Position numbers and translations under genes: made by a program. Shown piece by piece: positions 1-13,522 of a DNA stretch of 27,876 bases. Where the stretch lies: the IMG/VR virus record IMGVR_UViG_3300010300_000082, positions 1 to 27,876 of that record; one strand, 5' to 3'. Under the pieces are notes generated by a model. The model was not told the DNA's origin and ran no database searches. It was given only the letters and a program-made list of their open reading frames with translations. Within the stretch, counting starts at the first letter, position 1, and each line of letters opens with the position of its first letter. The stretch is from a virus.

Positions 1-2116
1 CAGTAAATTTATGTAAGTTTTTAAACTCCATATCATCACCAGCAACACCATCTCTTAATTGATCCATAACTCGAGCAATAACTGGAGCTGCATTTGCAAA
101 GTTATTTAAAACTGTTTCATCAATAGGTTGAAATTGCTGTAAAGCTTTTCCTAATTCTTGTAGACCTATAGCTTCTTGTTGTGTTTTATTATAACCAAAA
201 AGACCAGCAAGTTTTAGTAGACCTTCGTCATAAGCAACCAGCCATGATTCCCACCAATTAAGATCATCACCACCTAATACATCTACTAAGTTTTGACCTT
301 TAGCTGCTGTTACTAAGGTATATAAAGCTTGACCCATCTTTAAGAAGTTGTCAGTTTTAATTTCTGGGATATTATTAAGAGCTTCCATACCTTTAGCAAT
401 TTCCATTAGCACATTAGTATTATCAGTAAAAATACCACCATTTCCTAAAGCTAATTGTTTAAGATTAAATGTACCCATAAAGGTAACACTATCATTAATA
501 CTACTCATACCTTTGCCGATTTGCTCAAAATCATCAGCAATTCTATCTGCGTTTCTAACTATTTCAGTAGTGCCGTCTGGACGTAATACTTCTTTTGTTT
601 CATTAGCAAACGTCATTAAAGCATCTATACCAACAGCTAGATCCTTAAATGAATCTGAAGTAATCCATTTTAATGCTGCAACATTTGCTACGTTTATTTC
701 TTGTAATAAATTTCTTAATCCTACTCCTAAGTAAGTAAGAGAAAGAGAAGCGTCTTGAGGGTTTGGAACTTCCGATAAAGTTATAATACCATCTGCTACA
801 TTTCCAAGCGCATCATCATAACCTAATCTTTGAATTATTTTTGATCCTGCAGCAAAATCATTTCTCATGAATCGAGGATCATTTAGTGTTAGTAGGAATG
901 AACCAAGAGCATCACCTGCTGTAACTAAACTATCTTTTAAATTTTGTTGATTATCTATATTAGCTAAAGCACTAAGCCCATTAGCTATTCCAGTAAGATT
1001 TGCATTACCTAATAACTGGAAAGTTCTAGCTGCTGTTCTATCATCAACATTTTCAACCATGTATGATAAACCATCAGTAGCATCTCTTAGTATTTGTTTG
1101 TCAAATTCAGTATTACCTAATGCTTCAATACCAGATGCTAAGTCTTCAAATTGTGTACCATCTAATATTCTTAAGGCTACAGGTCCTAGAAAATCAATAT
1201 CATTCGATAGCTCTCTTATAGCATCACCAACAGCTGTTATATTAGATGTATTTACTTCAGTAGCACTTAATATTTTTAATCCATCTGATAAATTTTTAAA
1301 TGCTATTTCAGAGAAAATTTTAACTCCTCTTGCTTCAGCAATATTTACATCATCAGTTAAATTGTTAATTGCTTTGTTTAGAACTTTAAAATTTTCTGTT
1401 GTTATTTGTAATTTGTCAAGCTGATCTAAACCTAATGCAATATTTTGTAAACCCTTTCCAAACTTATCTACAGCTGCCGCTCCTAGATAAAGTGCGCCTG
1501 TAATAGCTGCAAGTCCTAAACCTACTAAAGCTAAGGTACCGCCTACAGCACCACCAACAGCGCCACCTACAGCTCCACCTGCTCTTCCTCCTAAAGCAGC
1601 ACCAGTTAATGTACCACCTAAGAAAGCTGAACCTCTACCTCCGCCTCCTTTGCCACCTAATCTTGCTAGGGAAGCTTCAAGTTGAGCGATTTTAGCATTA
1701 AGCATTTCAACATCTTTACCTGATGCTGGGTCTACAACTACTCCTAAACCTACTGAAGCTTTACCATCTTTACCACCTTTTCTACCAACACCATCCTCAT
1801 TAAGTTCTGTAGTTAGCGCTTTAAAAGGTAATAAACTTTCATTTATAGAAAGAAGTGTCTTTTTAACATCTTCAAATGTACTAAGTTGCTTTTCGCCTAT
1901 TGCGTTGCTTGCATCAAATTCTGTTCTTAAAGCATCAATTAATGCAAAATTACTGTTCTCGATTGAGCCAGTGAGTTTATTGATACGCATAACTTGTTGA
2001 CCAATAAGGCCAAACACTTGTGCGTTTGTTTTTGAATCGCCAGAACCTTTAGGCAAAGGTTTTTTACCAATTTTAGGTTGGTCAAAAGTACCTCCGCCTT
2101 TATTGTCCTCAGCCAT
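1..2116 (-). CDS. Tape-measure-like tail/baseplate-hub protein, C-terminus beyond the window
   Basis: An open frame runs from an ATG at 2116-2114 (first residues MAEDNKGGG) for 705 codons to the left edge without a stop, so the C-terminus is missing. Residues 1-30 are polar, 136-153 look like a short helix, and 168-215 form a Gly/Ala-rich hydrophobic stretch (GGAVGGAVGGAVGGTLALVG and following) that could be a membrane-active segment. From residue 225 on the protein is predicted helical and repeats a core of the type [NDE]-[LIV]-[AS]-x-G-[ILM]-x-x-L, with its Gly at 229, 279, 329, 380, 443, 496, 536 and 576. Length, hydrophobic segment, helical repeats and position just after gp26/gp51 fit a tape measure, the role T4 gp29 plays within the hub. 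I see no clear residue match to gp29. The start follows the TAG of the preceding gene by 3 nt, with a weak GGAAAA upstream. Confidence 0.7.
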   Translation of the reverse strand, partial: MAEDNKGGGTFDQPKIGKKPLPKGSGDSKTNAQVFGLIGQQVMRINKLTGSIENSNFALIDALRTEFDASNAIGEKQLSTFEDVKKTLLSINESLLPFKALTTELNEDGVGRKGGKDGKASVGLGVVVDPASGKDVEMLNAKIAQLEASLARLGGKGGGGRGSAFLGGTLTGAALGGRAGGAVGGAVGGAVGGTLALVGLGLAAITGALYLGAAAVDKFGKGLQNIALGLDQLDKLQITTENFKVLNKAINNLTDDVNIAEARGVKIFSEIAFKNLSDGLKILSATEVNTSNITAVGDAIRELSNDIDFLGPVALRILDGTQFEDLASGIEALGNTEFDKQILRDATDGLSYMVENVDDRTAARTFQLLGNANLTGIANGLSALANIDNQQNLKDSLVTAGDALGSFLLTLNDPRFMRNDFAAGSKIIQRLGYDDALGNVADGIITLSEVPNPQDASLSLTYLGVGLRNLLQEINVANVAALKWITSDSFKDLAVGIDALMTFANETKEVLRPDGTTEIVRNADRIADDFEQIGKGMSSINDSVTFMGTFNLKQLALGNGGIFTDNTNVLMEIAKGMEALNNIPEIKTDNFLKMGQALYTLVTAAKGQNLVDVLGGDDLNWWESWLVAYDEGLLKLAGLFGYNKTQQEAIGLQELGKALQQFQPIDETVLNNFANAAPVIARVMDQLRDGVAGDDMEFKNLHKFT

Positions 2117-2119
2117 TTA

Positions 2120-2488
2120 CTATTTTCCGAATGCTTTTCCAGCTTCACTAATACCAAAAGCACCAAGTGTTACTACAACAAATGATGTGTAAATAGTATC
2201 AGATATAACTAGATCTTGACCCATGAAAGCTGTAATTAAATCACAGATTCCGAATATGGTCATTAAACTAAATGAAATAAAACCTATTATTGCTTTCTCA
2301 TTTACGTCATTATCATCTAAAAATAGATCCATAAATTTTCTTTTAGGTGGAGCTAACTGTTTACGAGCTTGTTCAGCTTCATCCTTTAATTCTTTAATAG
2401 TGTCTTCTTGAGCATCAATCTTTTCGATCAAAGCCATATACTTATCAAGATCTATTTCGACTTCATTTCTGTCATTATCTTTTGCCAT
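2120..2488 (-). CDS. Small coiled-coil protein with two membrane helices, function unknown
   Basis: A 122-residue protein. Residues about 10-47 are strongly charged and heptad-like (DTIKELKDEAEQARKQL), consistent with a coiled coil. A basic/Pro linker (PPKRKF) follows, then two hydrophobic segments at about 67-91 and 98-115 separated by a short acidic turn. The two-helix hairpin resembles small holins, but the long N-terminal coiled coil and the position between the tail-assembly chaperone genes and the tape-measure-like gene fit an ejection or tail-assembly role equally well. Its ATG shares one base with the stop of the gp51-like frame (TAATG), and AGAGG lies 8 nt upstream of the ATG, so translation is probably coupled to reading of the gp51 frame. 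I do not recognise the family. Confidence 0.75.
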   Translation of the reverse strand: MAKDNDRNEVEIDLDKYMALIEKIDAQEDTIKELKDEAEQARKQLAPPKRKFMDLFLDDNDVNEKAIIGFISFSLMTIFGICDLITAFMGQDLVISDTIYTSFVVVTLGAFGISEAGKAFGK

Positions 2489-2670
2489 TATTTGTTCCTC
2501 TTATTTGCTTCCTCTTGAGCTTTCAAATAATCCATTAACATTTCTGTATATAACTCTCGCTCAAACGGATACATATTTTCAATCTCCGTTAAAGAGTATT
2601 TATGATGCTGCATAAGGTTAAACTGCAATTGATAATGAGAACCTAAGTCATTGTGACTTAGGCAAACATA
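2488..2670 (-). CDS. gp51-like frame, probably made as a -1 frameshift extension of gp26
   Basis: In the -1 frame relative to gp26, an open stretch of 60 codons runs from 2670 to the TAA at 2490-2488. It reads YVCLSHNDLGSHYQLQFNLM, then a segment including SLTEIENMYPFEREL, ending in a charged helix (KAQEEANKRNK). The position directly after gene 26 is that of T4 gene 51, the baseplate hub assembly factor, and I judge the sequence style compatible with the small gp51 proteins of marine T4-like phages. The coding-like part starts before any in-frame ATG: the first is at 2613-2611 without a Shine-Dalgarno, and the second at 2574-2572 has GGAG 9 nt upstream but would give only 28 residues. The simplest reading is a -1 frameshift on the T7 run at 2676-2670, giving a 303-residue gp26-gp51 fusion. 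Internal initiation at 2574 remains an alternative. Confidence 0.65.
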   Translation of the reverse strand, partial: YVCLSHNDLGSHYQLQFNLMQHHKYSLTEIENMYPFERELYTEMLMDYLKAQEEANKRNK

Positions 2671-2676
2671 AAAAAA
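2642..2676 (-). promoter_or_regulatory. Putative -1 programmed ribosomal frameshift signal
   Basis: Read on the minus strand, seven T at 2676-2670 fall in the gp26 frame as T-TTT-TTT, which matches the X-XXY-YYZ slippery pattern. After a 7-nt spacer (2669-2663) comes a perfect hairpin: CCTAAGTCA (2662-2654), loop CAA, TGACTTAGG (2650-2642). A further G-U pair (2663 with 2641) could extend it. The gp26 stop TAA (2660-2658) lies in the 5' arm. Slippage by -1 continues as TAT-GTT-TGC-CTA into the gp51-like frame. Spacer length and geometry fit known bacterial and viral -1 sites. RNA polymerase slippage on the T run is an alternative cause of the same fusion. Confidence 0.75.
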
Positions 2677-3398
2677 TCACTTAACCCTTTCAGCTCCTTT
2701 TCTTGCACATCACCATTGCTATCTTCATATGAAAATTTTCCATATAAGTAAGGTGCTGAGCCCATAAATCGTTGTACTTTTGAAAAATTAGCTGTTGATA
2801 AACTACCGTAGAATTCTTCTCTTTCTTCTTCGCTATAGTCATCAAGTAAAAAGACTTCTTCTCCATCTTTAGAATAAACTGATTCAATAACACTACCTAC
2901 AAGTTCTACTGCTAACGAACTAGCAGGTCTATCTTTGATGGTTTTAGCATCAAATTTAGAAATAGTTTTATAAGTTGGATATCTTAGTTTAATCATATAC
3001 TCATCATTCAATTCAATTTTATCTTCAACTTGTTCAGAAGCAAATTTTATCTCAATTGTATCTAAATCAAACTCAGCTTTATTCCATACTGGCTCTTCTT
3101 CTGTTGAAGCTACTTCATCTCTTACATTTAATGTAATAATTTGGTTTACTGATATAGCTCTTATTTTTACAAAAAGATATTCTAATTCAAATGTACTTAA
3201 TTCTGTAATATCTGTTTTATCTAATACGCAATTAGTAACAACTTGCATAATAGCATCTATTACACTTTTATCTTGATCTTCTTGCTGTGCAAAAAGTAAG
3301 ATCTTTTCTTCTTTTACTGTAAAAGGTCTAACCTTTACAGATTTTTTACTCACCGGTAACTCAATATTAAATTGAGGTGAATCAATTTTAGGTAACAT
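2658..3398 (-). CDS. 26: gp26-type baseplate hub / tail assembly protein
   Basis: A 246-residue protein that I recognise as the T4 gp26 family (PF12322, T4 baseplate protein). The N-terminus has the family's Pro-rich entry and the motif VRPFTVKEEKILLFAQQE (residues about 23-40), followed by a helical region and an acidic segment (STEEEP). T4 gp26 is about 208 residues, so this is slightly longer. It is not thought to be part of the finished virion in large amounts and acts in hub assembly around the tape measure. Start: ATG at 3398 with GGAG 7 nt upstream. The last codons are GAT-TTT-TTT-ATG-TTT-GCC-TAA; the T run followed by a hairpin suggests that some ribosomes shift by -1 and add the 60-residue gp51-like tail. 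It follows the gp54-like gene with a 14-nt gap. Confidence 0.85.
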   Translation of the reverse strand: MLPKIDSPQFNIELPVSKKSVKVRPFTVKEEKILLFAQQEDQDKSVIDAIMQVVTNCVLDKTDITELSTFELEYLFVKIRAISVNQIITLNVRDEVASTEEEPVWNKAEFDLDTIEIKFASEQVEDKIELNDEYMIKLRYPTYKTISKFDAKTIKDRPASSLAVELVGSVIESVYSKDGEEVFLLDDYSEEEREEFYGSLSTANFSKVQRFMGSAPYLYGKFSYEDSNGDVQEKELKGLSDFFMFA

Positions 3399-3412: not shown

Positions 3413-4201
3413 TTAAAATCCGTCAGCTTCTGAACCACCTGTAAATCCAGAGCCTAGTGTTTTTGCATTATTAAGAAGGTTTAATGCATCTTGAACGTTA
3501 GAAGGTTTTTCAAAACTCTTTACTACTTCTACAGCTCCTTTCATTTTTGAAATGAATTGGAATAAATTCATACCTCTATCACCGTCTTCTCCAGTTGGTG
3601 ATTTACTTGTAGTAGGAATAATACCTCTATAACTTAACTGAACTGAAATTGTTGTAAGTTCATTATTTTGTTGCCAACCTAGTTCTACAGTACCAAGGTT
3701 ACTGATTATAGCATCAATTACTTTGTATGTTGTAATAACATTTTTTTGAGGATCAAAAATTTCAATATCTAAATTCATAGCATAGTCATCAAAATATCCA
3801 ACTTGCCCGAATTTCATATCTACACCTTCTTCCATCTTTACTGTATCAGTACCTTGAGGCTTATAATTAACATGTGCTCCTGCCCAGTTATTTAAAAAAT
3901 CTAAAACTAAATTTTGATTATCTAAAAAAAACTCAACAGCAAGAGTACTAGGAACATAATTATTTGCTCTTCTTTCTATAGGACCAAATCCTTGTCTTTT
4001 TATTTCTGTAGTAGCTATGGTTAAATTTGGTACTTGAAATTTATATCCTAGTAATGAAAGAGCTTCAGTATGTTCAGCTTTAGCCCATGTCTTTGTTTGT
4101 TGGGTACCTTGCGGGTTAAATTTTATTCTACATAAATTAGGGACTTGAAGTCCTTTATAACCATGTACTTTTGCTTTTATATCATTTATATTGAAAGACA
4201 T
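3413..4201 (-). CDS. 54: gp54-like baseplate tail-tube initiator
   Basis: A 262-residue protein with the look of the T4 tail-tube family. A conserved N-terminal strand (LCRIKFNPQG) is followed by a segment typical of tube proteins in which a strand (LAVEFFLDNQ) precedes a helix and aromatic turn (LDFLNNWAGAHVNY). A later strand reads ISVQLSYRGI, and the tail is helical with Gly/Ser (LLNNAKTLGSGF). Those C-terminal features resemble T4 gp54 (320 residues), which sits on gp48 and starts polymerisation of the gp19 tube. gp19 itself is near 163 residues, so the extra length favours gp54. It starts by TAATG overlap with the gp2-like gene and precedes gene 26. The main alternative is another member of the same tube fold, such as a divergent tube protein. 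Confidence 0.65.
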   Translation of the reverse strand: MSFNINDIKAKVHGYKGLQVPNLCRIKFNPQGTQQTKTWAKAEHTEALSLLGYKFQVPNLTIATTEIKRQGFGPIERRANNYVPSTLAVEFFLDNQNLVLDFLNNWAGAHVNYKPQGTDTVKMEEGVDMKFGQVGYFDDYAMNLDIEIFDPQKNVITTYKVIDAIISNLGTVELGWQQNNELTTISVQLSYRGIIPTTSKSPTGEDGDRGMNLFQFISKMKGAVEVVKSFEKPSNVQDALNLLNNAKTLGSGFTGGSEADGF

Positions 4202-4851
4202 TACTTATTCCATTTAGCTGTCGATTCGGTCCAAACTGTTTGTCTATTAGCTCTTACAAATCTTTCTAAAGGTAATTGCAATAAAATATCCCATTCTTGT
4301 GGATGTATTTTAAGCATTTTACCCCTTATATTATTATTTAGGTACTTTTTAAAACATGGCTTCCAATATTTCTTAGGTATACTAAGGTTTTGCACTTTAG
4401 TGTAATCTATATCTACAAACGCTTTTTCACCTAATACTGACGGTATGCCATCAACAGTTATCTGATCTTCATTTAAATATCTATATAATTGTGATAATAA
4501 TATTGCTCTTTCTAAGTATGGTAAGTAATGAAAGTTTAGACCTAATATAAACTCAGGCTGTATATCTAATAGTAGTATTAACGGGTATCTATCGTAGTAA
4601 GGAAGCTTTTTTTCATTTTCTGCGTTCTTAGGGTAGTAATTAAATAAAAATATATCACCAGGCTTAAATGGTAGTTCTGATTGAAGATTATCCTTTATAT
4701 CTTTTCTATCTAATATTCTATTAGGTCTCTGATTATCTAATTCTTTAGCTCTACTAATAAAATATTCTCTAGAACGTTTATTAACGCTTGCAGCTATATT
4801 AAGTAAAGCAGCGTCTTTTAGTACTCTTTGAAATAAAAATTTTAATGCCAT
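4201..4851 (-). CDS. Probable gp2-like DNA end protector
   Basis: A 216-residue basic protein. The N-terminus is helical and positively charged (about residues 1-60), followed by a conserved-looking core with GDIFLFNYYPKN, LPYYDRYPLILLLD and LGLNFHYLPYLERAILLSQL (about residues 67-125). The C-terminus has IHPQEWDILLQLPLERF. This pattern matches what I remember of proteins called DNA end protector gp2 in marine T4-like phages. In T4, gene 2 lies next to gene 4, as here, and gp2 binds the ends of packaged DNA and guards them from host RecBCD after injection. The gene is joined at both ends by TAATG overlaps to gp4 and gp54. T4 gp2 is longer (about 274 residues). The assignment rests on remembered similarity and synteny rather than a catalytic motif. 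Confidence 0.55.
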   Translation of the reverse strand: MALKFLFQRVLKDAALLNIAASVNKRSREYFISRAKELDNQRPNRILDRKDIKDNLQSELPFKPGDIFLFNYYPKNAENEKKLPYYDRYPLILLLDIQPEFILGLNFHYLPYLERAILLSQLYRYLNEDQITVDGIPSVLGEKAFVDIDYTKVQNLSIPKKYWKPCFKKYLNNNIRGKMLKIHPQEWDILLQLPLERFVRANRQTVWTESTAKWNK

Positions 4852-5285
4852 TACTTAATACCTAATTCTTTTTCAGTCATTATTTTAAAATCCCAGCCTC
4901 TATCTTTACAATAGTTTTGAGCTGCAATCCATTTTGCTTCATTTATACCATAAGCTTTAACTTCAGTTAAATACTTTTTATTGGGTTTAGCTGACATCTT
5001 TGGCGGTATAGTTTGCTTGTAAGGTTTAACTTCAATTAATGACTCTTTTATTCTTCCGTTTATTTTTCGTTTAACATAAAAATCTGGATAATATCTATGT
5101 CTTCTATTATCGATAGGGCTTTTATAAGGTATGGCTATCTCTTCACTAGCCCATCCAATAACATCTGGATGGCTATCTAAATACGACATAAGCTTACATT
5201 CCCACAAACTTCTATAAATAATGTTTGTAGGGTTACCTAAATACTTGTAATAATTTTTAGGTTTAAATTTACCTTTATAAGCCAT
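4851..5285 (-). CDS. 4: gp4 head completion protein, TnsA/PD-(D/E)XK nuclease fold
   Basis: A 144-residue protein close in length to T4 gp4 (also called gp50/65, about 150 residues), which finishes the filled head before the tail joins. The N-terminus reads KGKFKPKNYYKYLGNPTNII, followed by YRSLWECKL and WASEEIAIPY. The putative nuclease core is visible as Glu29, Asp68 in HRYYPDFYV, and Glu85-x-Lys87 in LIEVKPY, the usual PD-(D/E)XK arrangement. It is the first gene of the leftward operon and overlaps the gp2-like gene by one base. The start has no Shine-Dalgarno. An exact T4 late-promoter octamer ends 5 nt before the ATG, so the message may be leaderless. The N-terminal match to T4 gp4 supports this start. 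Confidence 0.9.
   Translation of the reverse strand: MAYKGKFKPKNYYKYLGNPTNIIYRSLWECKLMSYLDSHPDVIGWASEEIAIPYKSPIDNRRHRYYPDFYVKRKINGRIKESLIEVKPYKQTIPPKMSAKPNKKYLTEVKAYGINEAKWIAAQNYCKDRGWDFKIMTEKELGIK
5213..5220 (+). promoter_or_regulatory. Putative T4-type late promoter for the rightward operon
   Basis: An exact TATAAATA, the T4 late consensus recognised by the gp55 sigma factor, sits on the plus strand inside gp4 (antisense to it). Taking the octamer as -13 to -6, transcription would start near 5226 and give an 84-nt leader before gp48. I found only one other exact copy of the octamer on either strand of the window, and it is the promoter facing this one. A coincidence from the codons for Ile-Ile-Tyr-Arg in gp4 is possible. 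Confidence 0.5.
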
Positions 5286-6790: not shown

Positions 6791-8106
6791 TGGCAATGAA
6801 TACTACGCCAGGTAATCACGGGCCGTCCGCTATCTACCTGGGAAAAAATGATAATGGTACTTTAACTTATGTTGCTTTAGATGAAAATTTTCAATCTATT
6901 CACATGTATACTTCTTTGCATTCTCAAGCAATAAAGTGCCAATTAAGAGTTAATGATCCTGTTGATTTATTAGGTCAATTAGAGCCTACTGGAGAAGAGC
7001 TAATAATTGTTGCTTGGTCAACTCCTAATTTTCATTCTGACAGGCCTGAACATAAAGAAAGATTAATTTGTTTTAGAGTAACTAAAATAGAAGATGTTAC
7101 AGTAGATAAAAATAATTTAAAAAGACAATCATATACAATTCACGGACTTCATGAATTAGCTTATCTTCAATCCTTTGGATCTATCGATAATCATTTTTCT
7201 GGGACTATTCATGATGCAGCTAAAAAGTTTTTTGAAAAAGGTAAAGACAGGGCTTCTGAAATTGATAGTCAAATTTTATATCCTAAAAAATGTAATTTAA
7301 CTGTTGATGAAGTAGATGGAGTTGTTGACTTTATTATACCAAGTGAAACACCATTTGATGCAATGACATATCTTCAAGGATGGGCATCAGACAAATCCAA
7401 AAATCAAACAAATATTTTTCTTTTCTATCAAGATTTAGAAGGATATAATTTTAGAAATTTAGATAGTTTAATAATGGATAATTATCCACCAGACTTTAAT
7501 CATAATAGATACAGATATGATCCTATAATTAATAGACAGGCTTTAGCTAATCCGTTAAAATCAGACGAAATACTACAAATTCAGCAAGTAAGTAGATTTA
7601 ATGCTTATAAGCATGCAAGTAATGGAAACTTACATACATCAGTAGCTAAAGTAGATTATTTAACTAAAACTGTTGAAAGAGAATCAATGAAGTTTGATCA
7701 AAATGATGGTACTGAAAGAATGCAAACTTTATACCCTGTAGATATAGAGTATTTAAATAAATTTGCCAAAGATTCTAATTCAACTGATTGGATATATGTT
7801 AACTCTGGATTACCTAATTATATTGATAATTCACATTCGCATTTATCTAAAAAAGTATATGGTACGGTATTTTTTAATAATATAGTACAAATTTTAATAC
7901 CAGGAAACAGTTCTTTAGATATAGGACAAACTCTACGTATAAGAATTTCAAGACCAAGTTTGCCTTCTAATACAGGGGAAGAATCAACTTTAGATGCTGA
8001 AATAGATGGAAATTATTTAATAAAAGATATAGTCCATACACTTACTCCTCAGAGTTATTATCAGTTAATTACATTATGTAGAACAGGGAAAGAAAAATAT
8101 GCCTAA
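6790..8106 (+). CDS. 27: gp27-like baseplate central hub protein
   Basis: A 438-residue protein with beta-rich composition. Residues about 45-110 hold strand pairs typical of the hub fold (QAIKCQLRVNDPVDLLGQLE, RLICFRVTKIEDV), followed by HGLHELAYLQSFGSI and FIIPSETPFDAMTYLQGWAS, then FLFYQDLEGYNFRNLDSLI near 210, a sequence style I associate with gp27-like hubs (T4 gp27 has 391 residues). gp27 forms the trimeric ring at the baseplate centre that carries gp5. Here it lies directly before gp5 with an 8-nt overlap, whereas T4 keeps gene 27 in a separate hub operon; hub ring and spike are therefore co-transcribed. The identification rests on position and fold-style features, not on catalytic residues. 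Confidence 0.7.
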   Translation: MAMNTTPGNHGPSAIYLGKNDNGTLTYVALDENFQSIHMYTSLHSQAIKCQLRVNDPVDLLGQLEPTGEELIIVAWSTPNFHSDRPEHKERLICFRVTKIEDVTVDKNNLKRQSYTIHGLHELAYLQSFGSIDNHFSGTIHDAAKKFFEKGKDRASEIDSQILYPKKCNLTVDEVDGVVDFIIPSETPFDAMTYLQGWASDKSKNQTNIFLFYQDLEGYNFRNLDSLIMDNYPPDFNHNRYRYDPIINRQALANPLKSDEILQIQQVSRFNAYKHASNGNLHTSVAKVDYLTKTVERESMKFDQNDGTERMQTLYPVDIEYLNKFAKDSNSTDWIYVNSGLPNYIDNSHSHLSKKVYGTVFFNNIVQILIPGNSSLDIGQTLRIRISRPSLPSNTGEESTLDAEIDGNYLIKDIVHTLTPQSYYQLITLCRTGKEKYA

Positions 8107-9583
8107 ACAAGATATAAATTATACTAATTTTCAATGGCATTTTGGTGTTGTAGAAGATAGAAAAGACCCTTTAGAGATTGGAAGAGTAAAGGTTAGATTT
8201 TATGGTGTGCATTCAGAAGAACTTTCTGAAATAACTACTGAACAGCTACCATGGGCTACTGTTATTCTACCACCTATGTCACCTGGAACATCAGGCGTAG
8301 GTGGACCAGTTACAGGCTTAGTTGAAGGTACTTGGGTAATAGGATTTTTTATTGATGAAGGGCATTATCAGAAACCTATGGTACTAGGAGCTATACCTGG
8401 AATACCTACTGAACTAGCTGAAGAAGGAAAAGGGTTTAATGATCCTAATCAGATTTATCCTAGAAATTCAGTAGGACTGCATGAAATAGGAGAGCCTGAC
8501 ACAAGTTATCTTGCTAGAGGTAAAAAAGCTGAGAGTCATACAACTCTTAAAAAGAAAAGAGCAACAAGAGTAGAAAATGTCCATATCGCTAGACCTTTTC
8601 AGACTGTATTTGATGTAGCTGATGATGGTACTCCTGGTGTTGATTACGGATTAAAAACTTGGAATGAACCACATCCAAGAGGAACAAAAAGTGATGCAGA
8701 TCCATATCCATCTAAGTATCCATTTAATCACGTATTTGAATCAGAGATGGGCTCTGTTCTTGAACTAGATGATACTCCAGGTGGAGAAAGAATACACAAA
8801 TATCATAATTCTGGAACATTTGAAGAAATTCAACCAGATGGAACTAGAGTTCAAAAGATAATCGGTGAAGATTATGAAATAAGTACTAAAGGTAAGAATG
8901 TATTAATATCAGGAGGTAATTTAAATATTACTGTTGATGGTGATGTTAATTTAAATGTTACAGGAAACAAAATAGAAAGAATAGAAGGACATTATTATAC
9001 TTATGTTAAGAAGAATAGAGTAGAGTATATAAAAGGAAATCATACTACTCAGGTAAGCTCAGATAAAGGTTTATTTGTTGAAGGTAATAATTCAATATTT
9101 ATTGATAATCATAATACTGATACTACTAAATTATCCTCTACAATAACTAGAGGTGATACTAAAGTAACTGTAACAGGAACTGAAGAAAGAGATGTATTGG
9201 GTAAAGCAGATCATTTTTATGCTAAAACTTATGATTTGACCGTAAGAGATGTCCTTACTCAATTTACAAGTAAGACATTTAATCTTAATGCAAATGAAAA
9301 ATTAAATATTATCTCAACTGGTGATCAGAAATTTAAAACCAGTGCTAATCAGGTAATTGAAGTTACTCAAAATCAAAGTATGAGTATTTCTAATACTCAA
9401 ACAATGAATATAACAAGCTCACAAAATATTACTGCTTCACAAACTAATGTAAATAATGATATGAATATAACTGGTACATCTACAGCTACAGTTGATCATG
9501 TATCAGCTGGTAAGTCAGGAGCTACCCATACTCATACTGATACTACAGGCCTTGGAGCTGGAACAACAACGGGACCTAACTAA
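8099..9583 (+). CDS. 5: gp5-like baseplate hub and membrane-puncturing spike, no lysozyme domain
   Basis: A 494-residue VgrG/gp5-type spike. Residues about 11-112 are the OB-fold domain (WHFGVVEDRKDPLEIGRVKV, LPWATVILPPMSPG, GTWVIGFFIDEGHYQKPMVL). Residues about 215-255 are the family's entry to the spike (YPFNHVFESEMGSVLELDD, then ERIHKYHNSGTFEEIQPDGT). From about 270 on there are short alternating strands (NLNITVDGDVNLNVTGN) that suit a trimeric beta-helix. The roughly 100 residues between OB fold and spike hold no T4-lysozyme-like domain, and the protein is shorter than T4 gp5 (575 residues). The extreme C-terminus has His477-Thr-His479 followed by a Gly/Thr/Pro end, resembling the metal-binding tip of P2 gpV-type spikes. 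It overlaps gp27 by 8 nt and the next gene by TAATG. Confidence 0.85.
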   Translation: MPKQDINYTNFQWHFGVVEDRKDPLEIGRVKVRFYGVHSEELSEITTEQLPWATVILPPMSPGTSGVGGPVTGLVEGTWVIGFFIDEGHYQKPMVLGAIPGIPTELAEEGKGFNDPNQIYPRNSVGLHEIGEPDTSYLARGKKAESHTTLKKKRATRVENVHIARPFQTVFDVADDGTPGVDYGLKTWNEPHPRGTKSDADPYPSKYPFNHVFESEMGSVLELDDTPGGERIHKYHNSGTFEEIQPDGTRVQKIIGEDYEISTKGKNVLISGGNLNITVDGDVNLNVTGNKIERIEGHYYTYVKKNRVEYIKGNHTTQVSSDKGLFVEGNNSIFIDNHNTDTTKLSSTITRGDTKVTVTGTEERDVLGKADHFYAKTYDLTVRDVLTQFTSKTFNLNANEKLNIISTGDQKFKTSANQVIEVTQNQSMSISNTQTMNITSSQNITASQTNVNNDMNITGTSTATVDHVSAGKSGATHTHTDTTGLGAGTTTGPN

Positions 9584-11306: not shown

Positions 11307-11711
11307 ATGGCTATAAGTACTAAAACAACACAAACTTTTTTTAGTGATCTAAAATCAGACATGGGTGTTAACCCAGCTACTGATGATGTAATGCTTGTAA
11401 AAAATGAAGATGCAATTGAGCAGTCAATAAAAAATTTATTACAAACAAATTTTTATGAAAGATTATTTCAGCCGACTATAGGTAGCAATATTAAAAGTTT
11501 ATTGTTTGAACTAGCAACACCTCAAACTTCGTATAATATTAAAGAGGCTGTTTTTGAAACTATAGAAAATCATGAACCACGTTGTCAGTTAATAGACGTT
11601 ATAGTAGAAAATGATATAGATAGACATAGTATTAACGTCTATATCGAATATAAAGCAATAAACGTTGAAGGTACAAGAGCGTTTACAACAGTATTAAGTA
11701 GGGTAAGGTAA
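11307..11711 (+). CDS. 25: gp25 baseplate wedge protein
   Basis: A 134-residue protein, nearly the length of T4 gp25 (132), of the gp25/GpW-lysozyme-like family also found in contractile injection systems (TssE). The hallmark Glu-Pro-Arg is at residues 90-92 in ENHEPRCQLIDV. NLLQTNFYERLFQP (about 43-56) is the typical preceding helix, and ELATPQTSYNIKEAV (about 68-82) is also characteristic. gp25 joins the wedge to the hub and sheath and is essential for assembly. The gene starts 16 nt after the preceding stop with no Shine-Dalgarno and ends in a TAATG overlap with gp6, its structural partner. T4 keeps gene 25 in another operon. Confidence 0.92.
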   Translation: MAISTKTTQTFFSDLKSDMGVNPATDDVMLVKNEDAIEQSIKNLLQTNFYERLFQPTIGSNIKSLLFELATPQTSYNIKEAVFETIENHEPRCQLIDVIVENDIDRHSINVYIEYKAINVEGTRAFTTVLSRVR

Positions 11712-13522
11712 TGGCAAATACAGCAACATCAGTAGTTGATTTAGATTTTCAAACTATTAAAAGTAATTTAAGTAACTTTCTATCATCGCAAAATAATATA
11801 AAAGATTATGATTTTGCTGGATCGAATTTAAATGTTTTATTGGATGTTCTTGCTTACAATACCTATTTAAATAATTTCTATACTAATATGATTGCTAATG
11901 AGATGTTCCTAGATACAGCTCAAATTAAAGATAGTATTATATCACATGCAAAGGAATTAAACTATTTACCAAGATCAGCTTCAAGTTCAAAAGCAATAAT
12001 TAACGTAAAAGTTAACCCTACTGACGATCCTGGTTCTGTTACTATTCCTAAGTGGCATAAATTTAGCACAACGATTGCTGGAGCTACTAAAACGTTTTCA
12101 ACTCAGAGTGAACATATAATTACTAAATCAGAAGATGCAAATGGTAATCCAACATGGATAGGTAACAATATAGAAATATATGAAGGTAGAATTATTGAAG
12201 AATATTTTACAGTAGATACAGCTAATAATTTTGTAGCTGAACTTTCTAATGCTGATATAGATATAGATCATCTTGAAGTAAATATTAAAGTATCTAATAC
12301 AAGTTCAATCAATTCCGTTTGGTCTAAGGCAGATACTTTATTTGGATTAAGTGCATCATCTAATAGTTACTTTATTGAACCAGCTAAAAGTAATTTGTAT
12401 AGAATTACTTTCGGTGATGGTATTTTTGGTAAAAAACCTTCAGTAGGTAATATTATTAAAGCAAAATATAGAGTATCTAGTAAAAAAGAAGGTGATAATG
12501 GTAAAATATTTAGTTCAGTTACATCTATAGATGGATATGGTAATAGTATAGTTACAACCGTAACTAACTCAACAGGCGGTGCAGAAGCTGAAGATATTGA
12601 AAGCATTAGAATTAATGCTCCTAAATCATTTCAAGTTCAAGAAAGAGCAGTAACATCTAATGATTATGAAATACTAGCTAAAAGAGAATTCCCTAATATT
12701 CAAAATGTATTAGCCTTTGGAGGTGAAGAATTAGCTACTCCAAGATATGGTAAAGTTATTTTAGCTGTTGATATGAAAGATGCTGATGGTGTACCTGCTT
12801 CAGCTAAAAAATCTATTTCAGACTTTTTTAGTAAAAGAACACCTTTAGGTATAGATGTCGAAGTAGTTCAACCTGAATTTACTTTTATTGAAGTAGTAGG
12901 AGATGTAGCTTATAATATATCTGTTACAACTCAAACAGCAGCATCTATTAAATCAAAAGCACAAGCAGCTTTATTAACTTATGCTAATAATAACATTAAT
13001 AGTTTTGAATCAACTTATAGACATTCAAAAGCTTTAGCAAGTATAGATGACTCTGATACAAGTATTATATCTTCACAGCTTAGAAATAGAATATTTAAGA
13101 AACTTACTCCAAGCTCGACTGTAGCAGCATCATATGAATTATTATTTGATAATGAATTAGAAGCAGACGATTTATTTAATACAAATTCAGAAAGAAGATT
13201 ATATCTCCCTGCTGTAGAATCATCTTTATTTACTTACGGAACTGATAGTAATGCTTTTATTATTGATAATGGTAGCGGTGTTTTAAAAGTAGTTAAACTA
13301 GATGCAGCAAATAAATTTGTTGAGTTGTTATCTGATGCTGGAGCAGTAAATTATACTACCGGTAAAGTTGAAATAAATTCTATTTTAATTCCAGCATTTA
13401 GTGGTGGAGTTCTTAAAATCTTTGCAAGAGTAAAAAACAGAGATATATCATCTAAACAGGCATCAATTTTACAGCTTAATTCAGAAGATATTATATTAAA
13501 CGTTAATCAAGAGAGATTATAA
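11711..13522 (+). CDS. 6: gp6 baseplate wedge protein (baseplate J-like)
   Basis: A 603-residue protein (T4 gp6 has 660). The N-terminus has LNVLLDVLAYNTYLNNFYTN and FLDTAQIKDSIISHAKELNY, the conserved opening helices of gp6. The baseplate-J-like core starts near residue 235 with FGDGIFGKKPSVG. It continues with the GGAEAEDIESIR motif (from 289) and SFQVQERAVTSNDYEILAKR, which is diagnostic for the J family. A segment of regular strands and a C-terminal domain follow. gp6 dimerises to make the continuous ring of the baseplate and holds gp25 and gp53. It is bracketed by TAATG overlaps with gp25 and the gp7-like gene, keeping the wedge proteins in one translational unit. Confidence 0.9.
   Translation: MANTATSVVDLDFQTIKSNLSNFLSSQNNIKDYDFAGSNLNVLLDVLAYNTYLNNFYTNMIANEMFLDTAQIKDSIISHAKELNYLPRSASSSKAIINVKVNPTDDPGSVTIPKWHKFSTTIAGATKTFSTQSEHIITKSEDANGNPTWIGNNIEIYEGRIIEEYFTVDTANNFVAELSNADIDIDHLEVNIKVSNTSSINSVWSKADTLFGLSASSNSYFIEPAKSNLYRITFGDGIFGKKPSVGNIIKAKYRVSSKKEGDNGKIFSSVTSIDGYGNSIVTTVTNSTGGAEAEDIESIRINAPKSFQVQERAVTSNDYEILAKREFPNIQNVLAFGGEELATPRYGKVILAVDMKDADGVPASAKKSISDFFSKRTPLGIDVEVVQPEFTFIEVVGDVAYNISVTTQTAASIKSKAQAALLTYANNNINSFESTYRHSKALASIDDSDTSIISSQLRNRIFKKLTPSSTVAASYELLFDNELEADDLFNTNSERRLYLPAVESSLFTYGTDSNAFIIDNGSGVLKVVKLDAANKFVELLSDAGAVNYTTGKVEINSILIPAFSGGVLKIFARVKNRDISSKQASILQLNSEDIILNVNQERL

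Follow-up and report, generated by a model that had tools for sequence, protein, structure and literature searches.

A predicted −1 frameshift that would yield the short (gp26) and long (gp26-gp51) products of a probable tail assembly chaperone gene in a marine T4-like phage and its relatives

Are gp26 and gp51 of a marine T4-like virus two separate proteins, or does a −1 programmed frameshift join them in a single chain? The question is raised by the first 27,876 nucleotides of IMG/VR record IMGVR_UViG_3300010300_000082 (positions 1 to 27,876, the whole stretch of DNA that was analysed and is called here the window), in which the gp26 frame ends on the minus strand with AGT GAT TTT TTT ATG TTT GCC TAA. 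The features of this region are the following:

3413..4201, minus strand: upstream neighbour, tail tube protein (phrog_45, E 6.2e-23)
2658..3398, minus strand: gp26 open reading frame, putative short chaperone form (TAC-N), 246 aa (PF12322, phrog_150, AlphaFold2 model)
2685..2690, minus strand: AAAGGG, resembling a Shine-Dalgarno and a possible stimulator, 8 nt 5′ of the slippery run (window sequence and cluster-wide duplex energy)
2670..2676, minus strand: slippery heptamer T TTT TTT in the gp26 register (window sequence, coordinates re-derived)
2641..2663, minus strand: hairpin GCCTAAGTCA-CAA-TGACTTAGGT, nine Watson-Crick pairs plus a G-U, 6-7 nt 3′ of the heptamer
2658..2660, minus strand: gp26 stop TAA, within the 5′ arm of the hairpin (window sequence)
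2488..2670, minus strand: −1 frame extension, putative TAC-C ('gp51'), 60 codons plus stop (phrog_634, E 9.9e-22)
2488..3398, minus strand: predicted frameshift product gp26-gp51, putative long chaperone form (TAC-NC), 303 aa (window sequence; T4 gp51 domain order)
2120..2488, minus strand: downstream neighbour, 122-aa open reading frame without significant family in profile searches
2..2116, minus strand: downstream long open reading frame, cut by the window end, a candidate tape measure protein by position and without family match itself

The preliminary description of this junction, namely an in-register T-TTT-TTT run, a 7-nt spacer and a 9-bp hairpin that holds the gp26 stop and has a 3-nt loop, was confirmed base for base. 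The perfect stem, CCTAAGTCA/TGACTTAGG, occupies positions 2662-2654 and 2650-2642 around the loop CAA, and a tenth pair is G-U. The re-derived coordinates also agree with a −1 frame that stays open for 60 codons from 2670 to its stop at 2490-2488, that looks coding before any ATG and that would give a fusion of 303 residues. The gp26 frame itself matches PF12322 (E 1.8e-45) and phrog_150 (E 2.5e-51).

Judged within the window alone, such a coincidence is only moderately rare: when gene end and register are ignored, at least one heptamer followed at 4-10 nt by a perfect 9-bp stem occurs in 17 of 200 shuffles of the window, and the weight is therefore borne by the comparison with relatives. The T run was also considered as a rarity in itself and rejected as such, the window holding seven T7 runs against 27.6 expected, that is, fewer.

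The window together with 80 loci from a scan of IMG/VR made up a first set of 81 loci, and in every one of them a homologue of gp51 occupies the −1 frame relative to gp26. Once 15 annotated phages were included, 78 distinct junctions were obtained, which form 36 clusters at 60% identity. A heptamer of the form U UUU UUN, in register and 2-5 codons ahead of the gp26 stop, is found in 76 of these junctions and in 34 of the clusters, as TTTTTTT in 62 of the 76, TTTTTTC in 11, TTTTTTG in two and TTTTTTA in one. The length of the T run varies from 6 to 8 with a fixed register, only six T being present at 14 of the 76 sites and eight at four. In every heptamer-bearing junction the codon preceding the two slip codons ends in T, whereas in the rest of gp26 the share for codons of the same amino acid is 27-72% (determined for S, D, T, N, R and G). 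The first slip codon is TTT without exception, as against 67% of Phe codons. When each 60%-identity cluster is represented by a single sequence, these synonymous choices have a joint probability of about 10^-16, a rough figure that takes the clusters as independent and uses an assumed value for one Ala codon. The extensions align from their first residues, with a pattern like LSHNxLxxYYxxxFxLxxHHKYSxxEIExxxPFERDxY, and the homology of the downstream part begins at the slip site, usually ahead of any ATG. By the heptamer counts and this joint probability, conservation among relatives raises the junction far above chance.

The heptamer is absent in two Ackermannviridae-type relatives, the Vibrio phages VP-1 (Ackermannviridae) and the similar D495, which have kept the −1 tail. 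Their gp26 genes end in CTTTTC AAG TAATGG (D495, locus L093) and GTTTTT CGC TAATG (VP-1, locus L094), sequences suggesting either another slip motif or stop-start re-initiation.

Regarding stimulatory elements, an 81-nt segment of the window folds with −24.5 kcal/mol (z = −4.4), and none of 200 shuffles was equally stable. Across the 34 heptamer-bearing clusters, the 45 nt downstream show a mean z of −1.54 versus −0.18 in control stretches of the same genes (p = 2e-6), with values below −2 in 44% of the clusters (15 of 34, the other 19 lying above) versus 5% of controls. The stems differ from clade to clade, and that of the window persists chiefly among its closest relatives: near-perfect in L002-L005, with one bulge, and in L054, with changed outer pairs, and weak in L006 and L007. 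A universal hairpin was considered and rejected, only those 15 clusters having a z below −2. By these folding scores, the excess of downstream structure is family-wide, though not present in every cluster, and the perfect hairpin of the window is limited to its clade. Upstream, the mean duplex energy with the anti-Shine-Dalgarno in the same 34 clusters is −5.5 kcal/mol, versus −1.2 in control positions (p = 9e-15). This element is also stronger than a synonymous-codon null (−5.5 versus −4.7, sd 0.23; 0 of 200). A large part of the signal is explained by conserved Glu-Gly residues, and the excess beyond them is smaller but consistent. Both the structure and the Shine-Dalgarno-like stretch, scored on their presence, are possible stimulators.

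Most of what characterizes a programmed frameshift can be recognized here: an in-frame heptamer before the 0-frame stop, an overlapping −1 frame conserved at the protein level, a structure 5-9 nt downstream (in the window, z −4.4 with a spacer of 6-7 nt), whose stimulation is a prediction, and, by presence, an upstream Shine-Dalgarno-like stretch of the bacterial type, which is optional. That gp26 and gp51 are connected by a −1 programmed frameshift, as the preliminary description proposed, is very probable and strongly supported by the comparison of relatives, through the heptamers, the constant −1 relation and an extension conserved ahead of any ATG. Most ribosomes would end at the gp26 stop, producing the short form TAC-N of 246 aa, whereas some, aided by the upstream Shine-Dalgarno-like stretch and the downstream hairpin, would move back by one base on U UUU UUU and read 60 more codons to produce TAC-NC, of 303 aa. 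The slipping, its rate and the action of the products as chaperones are what we infer from this arrangement.

Three other explanations have to be weighed. That gp51 is a separate small protein, translated from an internal start in the −1 frame or through termination-reinitiation at the gp26 stop without any fusion, seems very unlikely. An ATG does follow the slip site within five codons in 13 of the 34 clusters, often as TAATG or TGATG over the stop, which makes re-initiation conceivable in those clusters, and databases annotate gp51 as a gene of its own (for example, with 30 aa in P-HM2 and Vibrio D479), but a Shine-Dalgarno-like match accompanies such an ATG in only one of the 13, and in 21 of the 34 clusters the extension lacks an ATG over its first 10 codons, one cluster being without any in the stretch examined. 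The window has its first ATG at codon 20 (position 2613), again with no Shine-Dalgarno-like match, and a start there would lose conserved residues. Moreover, a separate gp51 leaves unexplained the conservation of the heptamer at synonymous sites, and in T4 the tail of gp51 is fused to a gp26-like domain. The pattern that would favour independent translation over frameshifting, a conserved gp51 ATG with a Shine-Dalgarno and no slippery run, was looked for in the relatives, and the outcome does not refute frameshifting, the run being present in 76 of the 78 junctions. As for the features that the preliminary description expected in related phages, the slippery run recurs in those junctions and the lack of an early ATG in the 21 clusters mentioned, whereas only the clade of the window has the perfect hairpin.

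Still less credible is a long form arising by transcriptional slippage on the T run. A T7 run is indeed present in the window, but what is conserved is the U UUU UUN codon register and not the length of the run, as the sites with six and with eight T illustrate, and the downstream folding and upstream Shine-Dalgarno-like element indicate ribosomes rather than the polymerase. Homopolymers are prone to sequencing error, which gives some ground to regard the split as a sequencing or assembly error, or as a decayed gene. However, this reading has practically no probability left, because the −1 arrangement recurs in 81 records and in isolated phage genomes, and also at sites where the motif is the non-homopolymeric TTTTTTC, G or A. 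A −1 ribosomal frameshift is consequently the preferred reading of the junction.

The stop-start overlaps merit a separate mention. Loci L011, L016, L019, L032 and similar ones carry TAATG or TGATG in the −1 frame directly after the slip site, and in several clades such overlaps at the gp26 stop come without a Shine-Dalgarno-like match. A free extension peptide is conceivable as a third product at these loci.

What would a short and a long gp26 product do? AlphaFold2 was used to model two gp26 proteins that share about 34% identity, that of the window (mean pLDDT 89) and a second one (91.5), and the models were compared with solved structures. Residues 1-84 of the window protein align with the HK97 tail assembly chaperone 2ob9 with Z 7.3 (rmsd 3.1, 82 aligned residues, 7% identity) and the second model does so with Z 7.2, values near 7 and below 8 that are moderate, within the range for models without a true relative, and that came only from re-aligning Foldseek candidates. 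For both models 2ob9 is the best or second-best match, and the other structures compared score at most 3.0, except for the uncharacterised 3fgx (Z 8.5 for one model). Foldseek against the PDB gave no match below E 0.001, and a gp26 profile against the sequences of solved structures gave chance-level matches only. The resemblance of the predicted N-terminal domain to the HK97 chaperone is suggestive, and for the remaining 150 or so residues of gp26 there is no clear match.

This moderate fold match agrees with the gene order of the window, in which the gp26/gp51 gene lies between that for the tail tube and a long open reading frame. In Melnitz-1 and Vibrio D479, the long open reading frame in the equivalent position shows a weak tape-measure family match (2e-8 and 2e-10, respectively). 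Elsewhere in the window, positions 5310-27876 of the plus strand hold a divergent T4-type baseplate cluster, with a tube cap, wedge proteins, a hub-lysozyme (8099-9583) and gp25-like (11307-11711) and gp6-like (11711-13522) proteins, and positions 4851-5285 of the minus strand encode a gp4-like head closure protein with an N-terminal match to a TnsA-like endonuclease domain (PF08722, E 3.2e-23).

In T4 itself, gp26 (208 aa) and gp51 (249 aa) are encoded on opposite strands. Both match PF12322 (8.8e-64 and 3.9e-52, respectively) and each other directly (2e-6), and only gp51 carries the extension, with PF12322 over residues 1-201 and phrog_634 over 147-246. By these matches the T4 proteins are paralogues, gp51 being a gp26-like domain followed by a C-terminal tail as in the frameshift extension, so that T4 has its short and long forms as two genes. 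They are homologous to the two forms described here and differ from them as separate, opposite-strand genes without the heptamer. Seven two-gene phages were sampled (T4, 44RR, KM3, Ac42, AS-gz, VR25 and Aragogtheria; KM3, whose record gives no family, was assigned to the two-gene Straboviridae by gene content), and none has the heptamer at the gp26 end or a recognisable −1 frame extension after gp26. In contrast, the one-gene phages AsFcp_4, AS-szw and VH7D (Straboviridae) and Vibrio D479 have both. A search of T4 for a vestige of this site found none, the sequence there being GAG TTC TTT GAG. In Klebsiella phage KM3 (L099:3501-4795), the long gp51 gene and the short gp26 gene adjoin each other on one strand, overlapping by 4 nt, and do not lie on opposite strands as in T4.

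The tail frameshift has been described as conserved in long-tailed phages 'except T4' (PMC5009743). The distribution of heptamer and −1 tail between one-gene and two-gene phages fits a duplication that replaced recoding, and it seems likely that frameshifting is ancestral in T4-type phages and that the T4 branch duplicated the gene into a short copy (26) and an in-frame fusion (51), with loss of the slippery site. The exception of T4 to the lambda rule would then be a derived state.

None of the sampled annotated phage records joins the two frames. The records of S-CAM1, S-MbCM6 and ACG-2014d lack gp51, while those of P-HM2 (30 aa), Vibrio D479 (30 aa) and Melnitz-1 (47 aa) start it at a late ATG. 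Since the extension was found in 492 phage records, many annotations of the gp26/gp51 long form probably need correction. Cyanophage gp51, compared with other gp51 proteins, was reported at about 20% of their length and without the first ~200 residues (Sullivan et al. 2010, PMC3037559), and it would look short because, under a frameshift, the missing ~200 residues come from gp26. T4 gp51, needed for assembly and absent from the particle, was described in 2010 as essential, with its function unknown (PMC3004832), and the chaperone reading offers a function for it.

A last question is how this system relates to those already known. Vladimirov, Gautam and Davidson (2022, Virology 566:9-15) identified tail assembly chaperone genes in T4-like phages, under a title that emphasises a mechanism other than frameshifting. 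The PRFect paper (PMC10885494) takes from that work that some T4-like phages have separate short and fused long genes, and the paper on phage Adele (PMC12846349) refers to it for frameshift signals of poly-T type in the short-form genes of T4-like phages. As far as these citing papers convey it, the system of Vladimirov et al. comprises short and long genes and poly-T signals, as here. A direct description of gp26-gp51 frameshifting was not found in the open literature, taken apart from Vladimirov et al. 2022. The initial impression that such signals had not been described for T4-type phages does not hold, given the credit in PMC12846349, and the kind of mechanism is known already, as probably is the family-level claim. 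The present analysis adds this member, the extent of the system, the Shine-Dalgarno-like element and the reason why cyanophage 'gp51' looks truncated.

In the chaperone frameshift of other phage families, Vandenendeviridae and Andersonviridae (phage Adele, PMC12846349), the motif is GTTTTT, as compared with T TTT TTN here. A parallel in organisation is the tape measure chaperone pair gpG/gpGT of lambda, a short protein and its rare −1 frameshift extension, in which G attaches to the tape measure and the T part to the tail tube subunit, with a ratio of G to GT near 30:1 (PMC5009743). The slip motif of the T4-like gp26 genes, U UUU UUN, is unlike that of lambda. Short and long forms with a common N-terminal part belong to both systems, here as read from the sequence. 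The preliminary description is supported in joining gp26 and gp51 by a frameshift, whereas the treatment of the two as separate hub-assembly proteins, which it mentions for T4-type phages, gives way to what the sequences make the best reading, gp26 as the short and gp26-51 as the long form of one tail assembly chaperone of the lambda G/GT type. By analogy with lambda, coating of the tape measure protein would fall to the short form, and recruitment of tail-tube subunits to the added tail.
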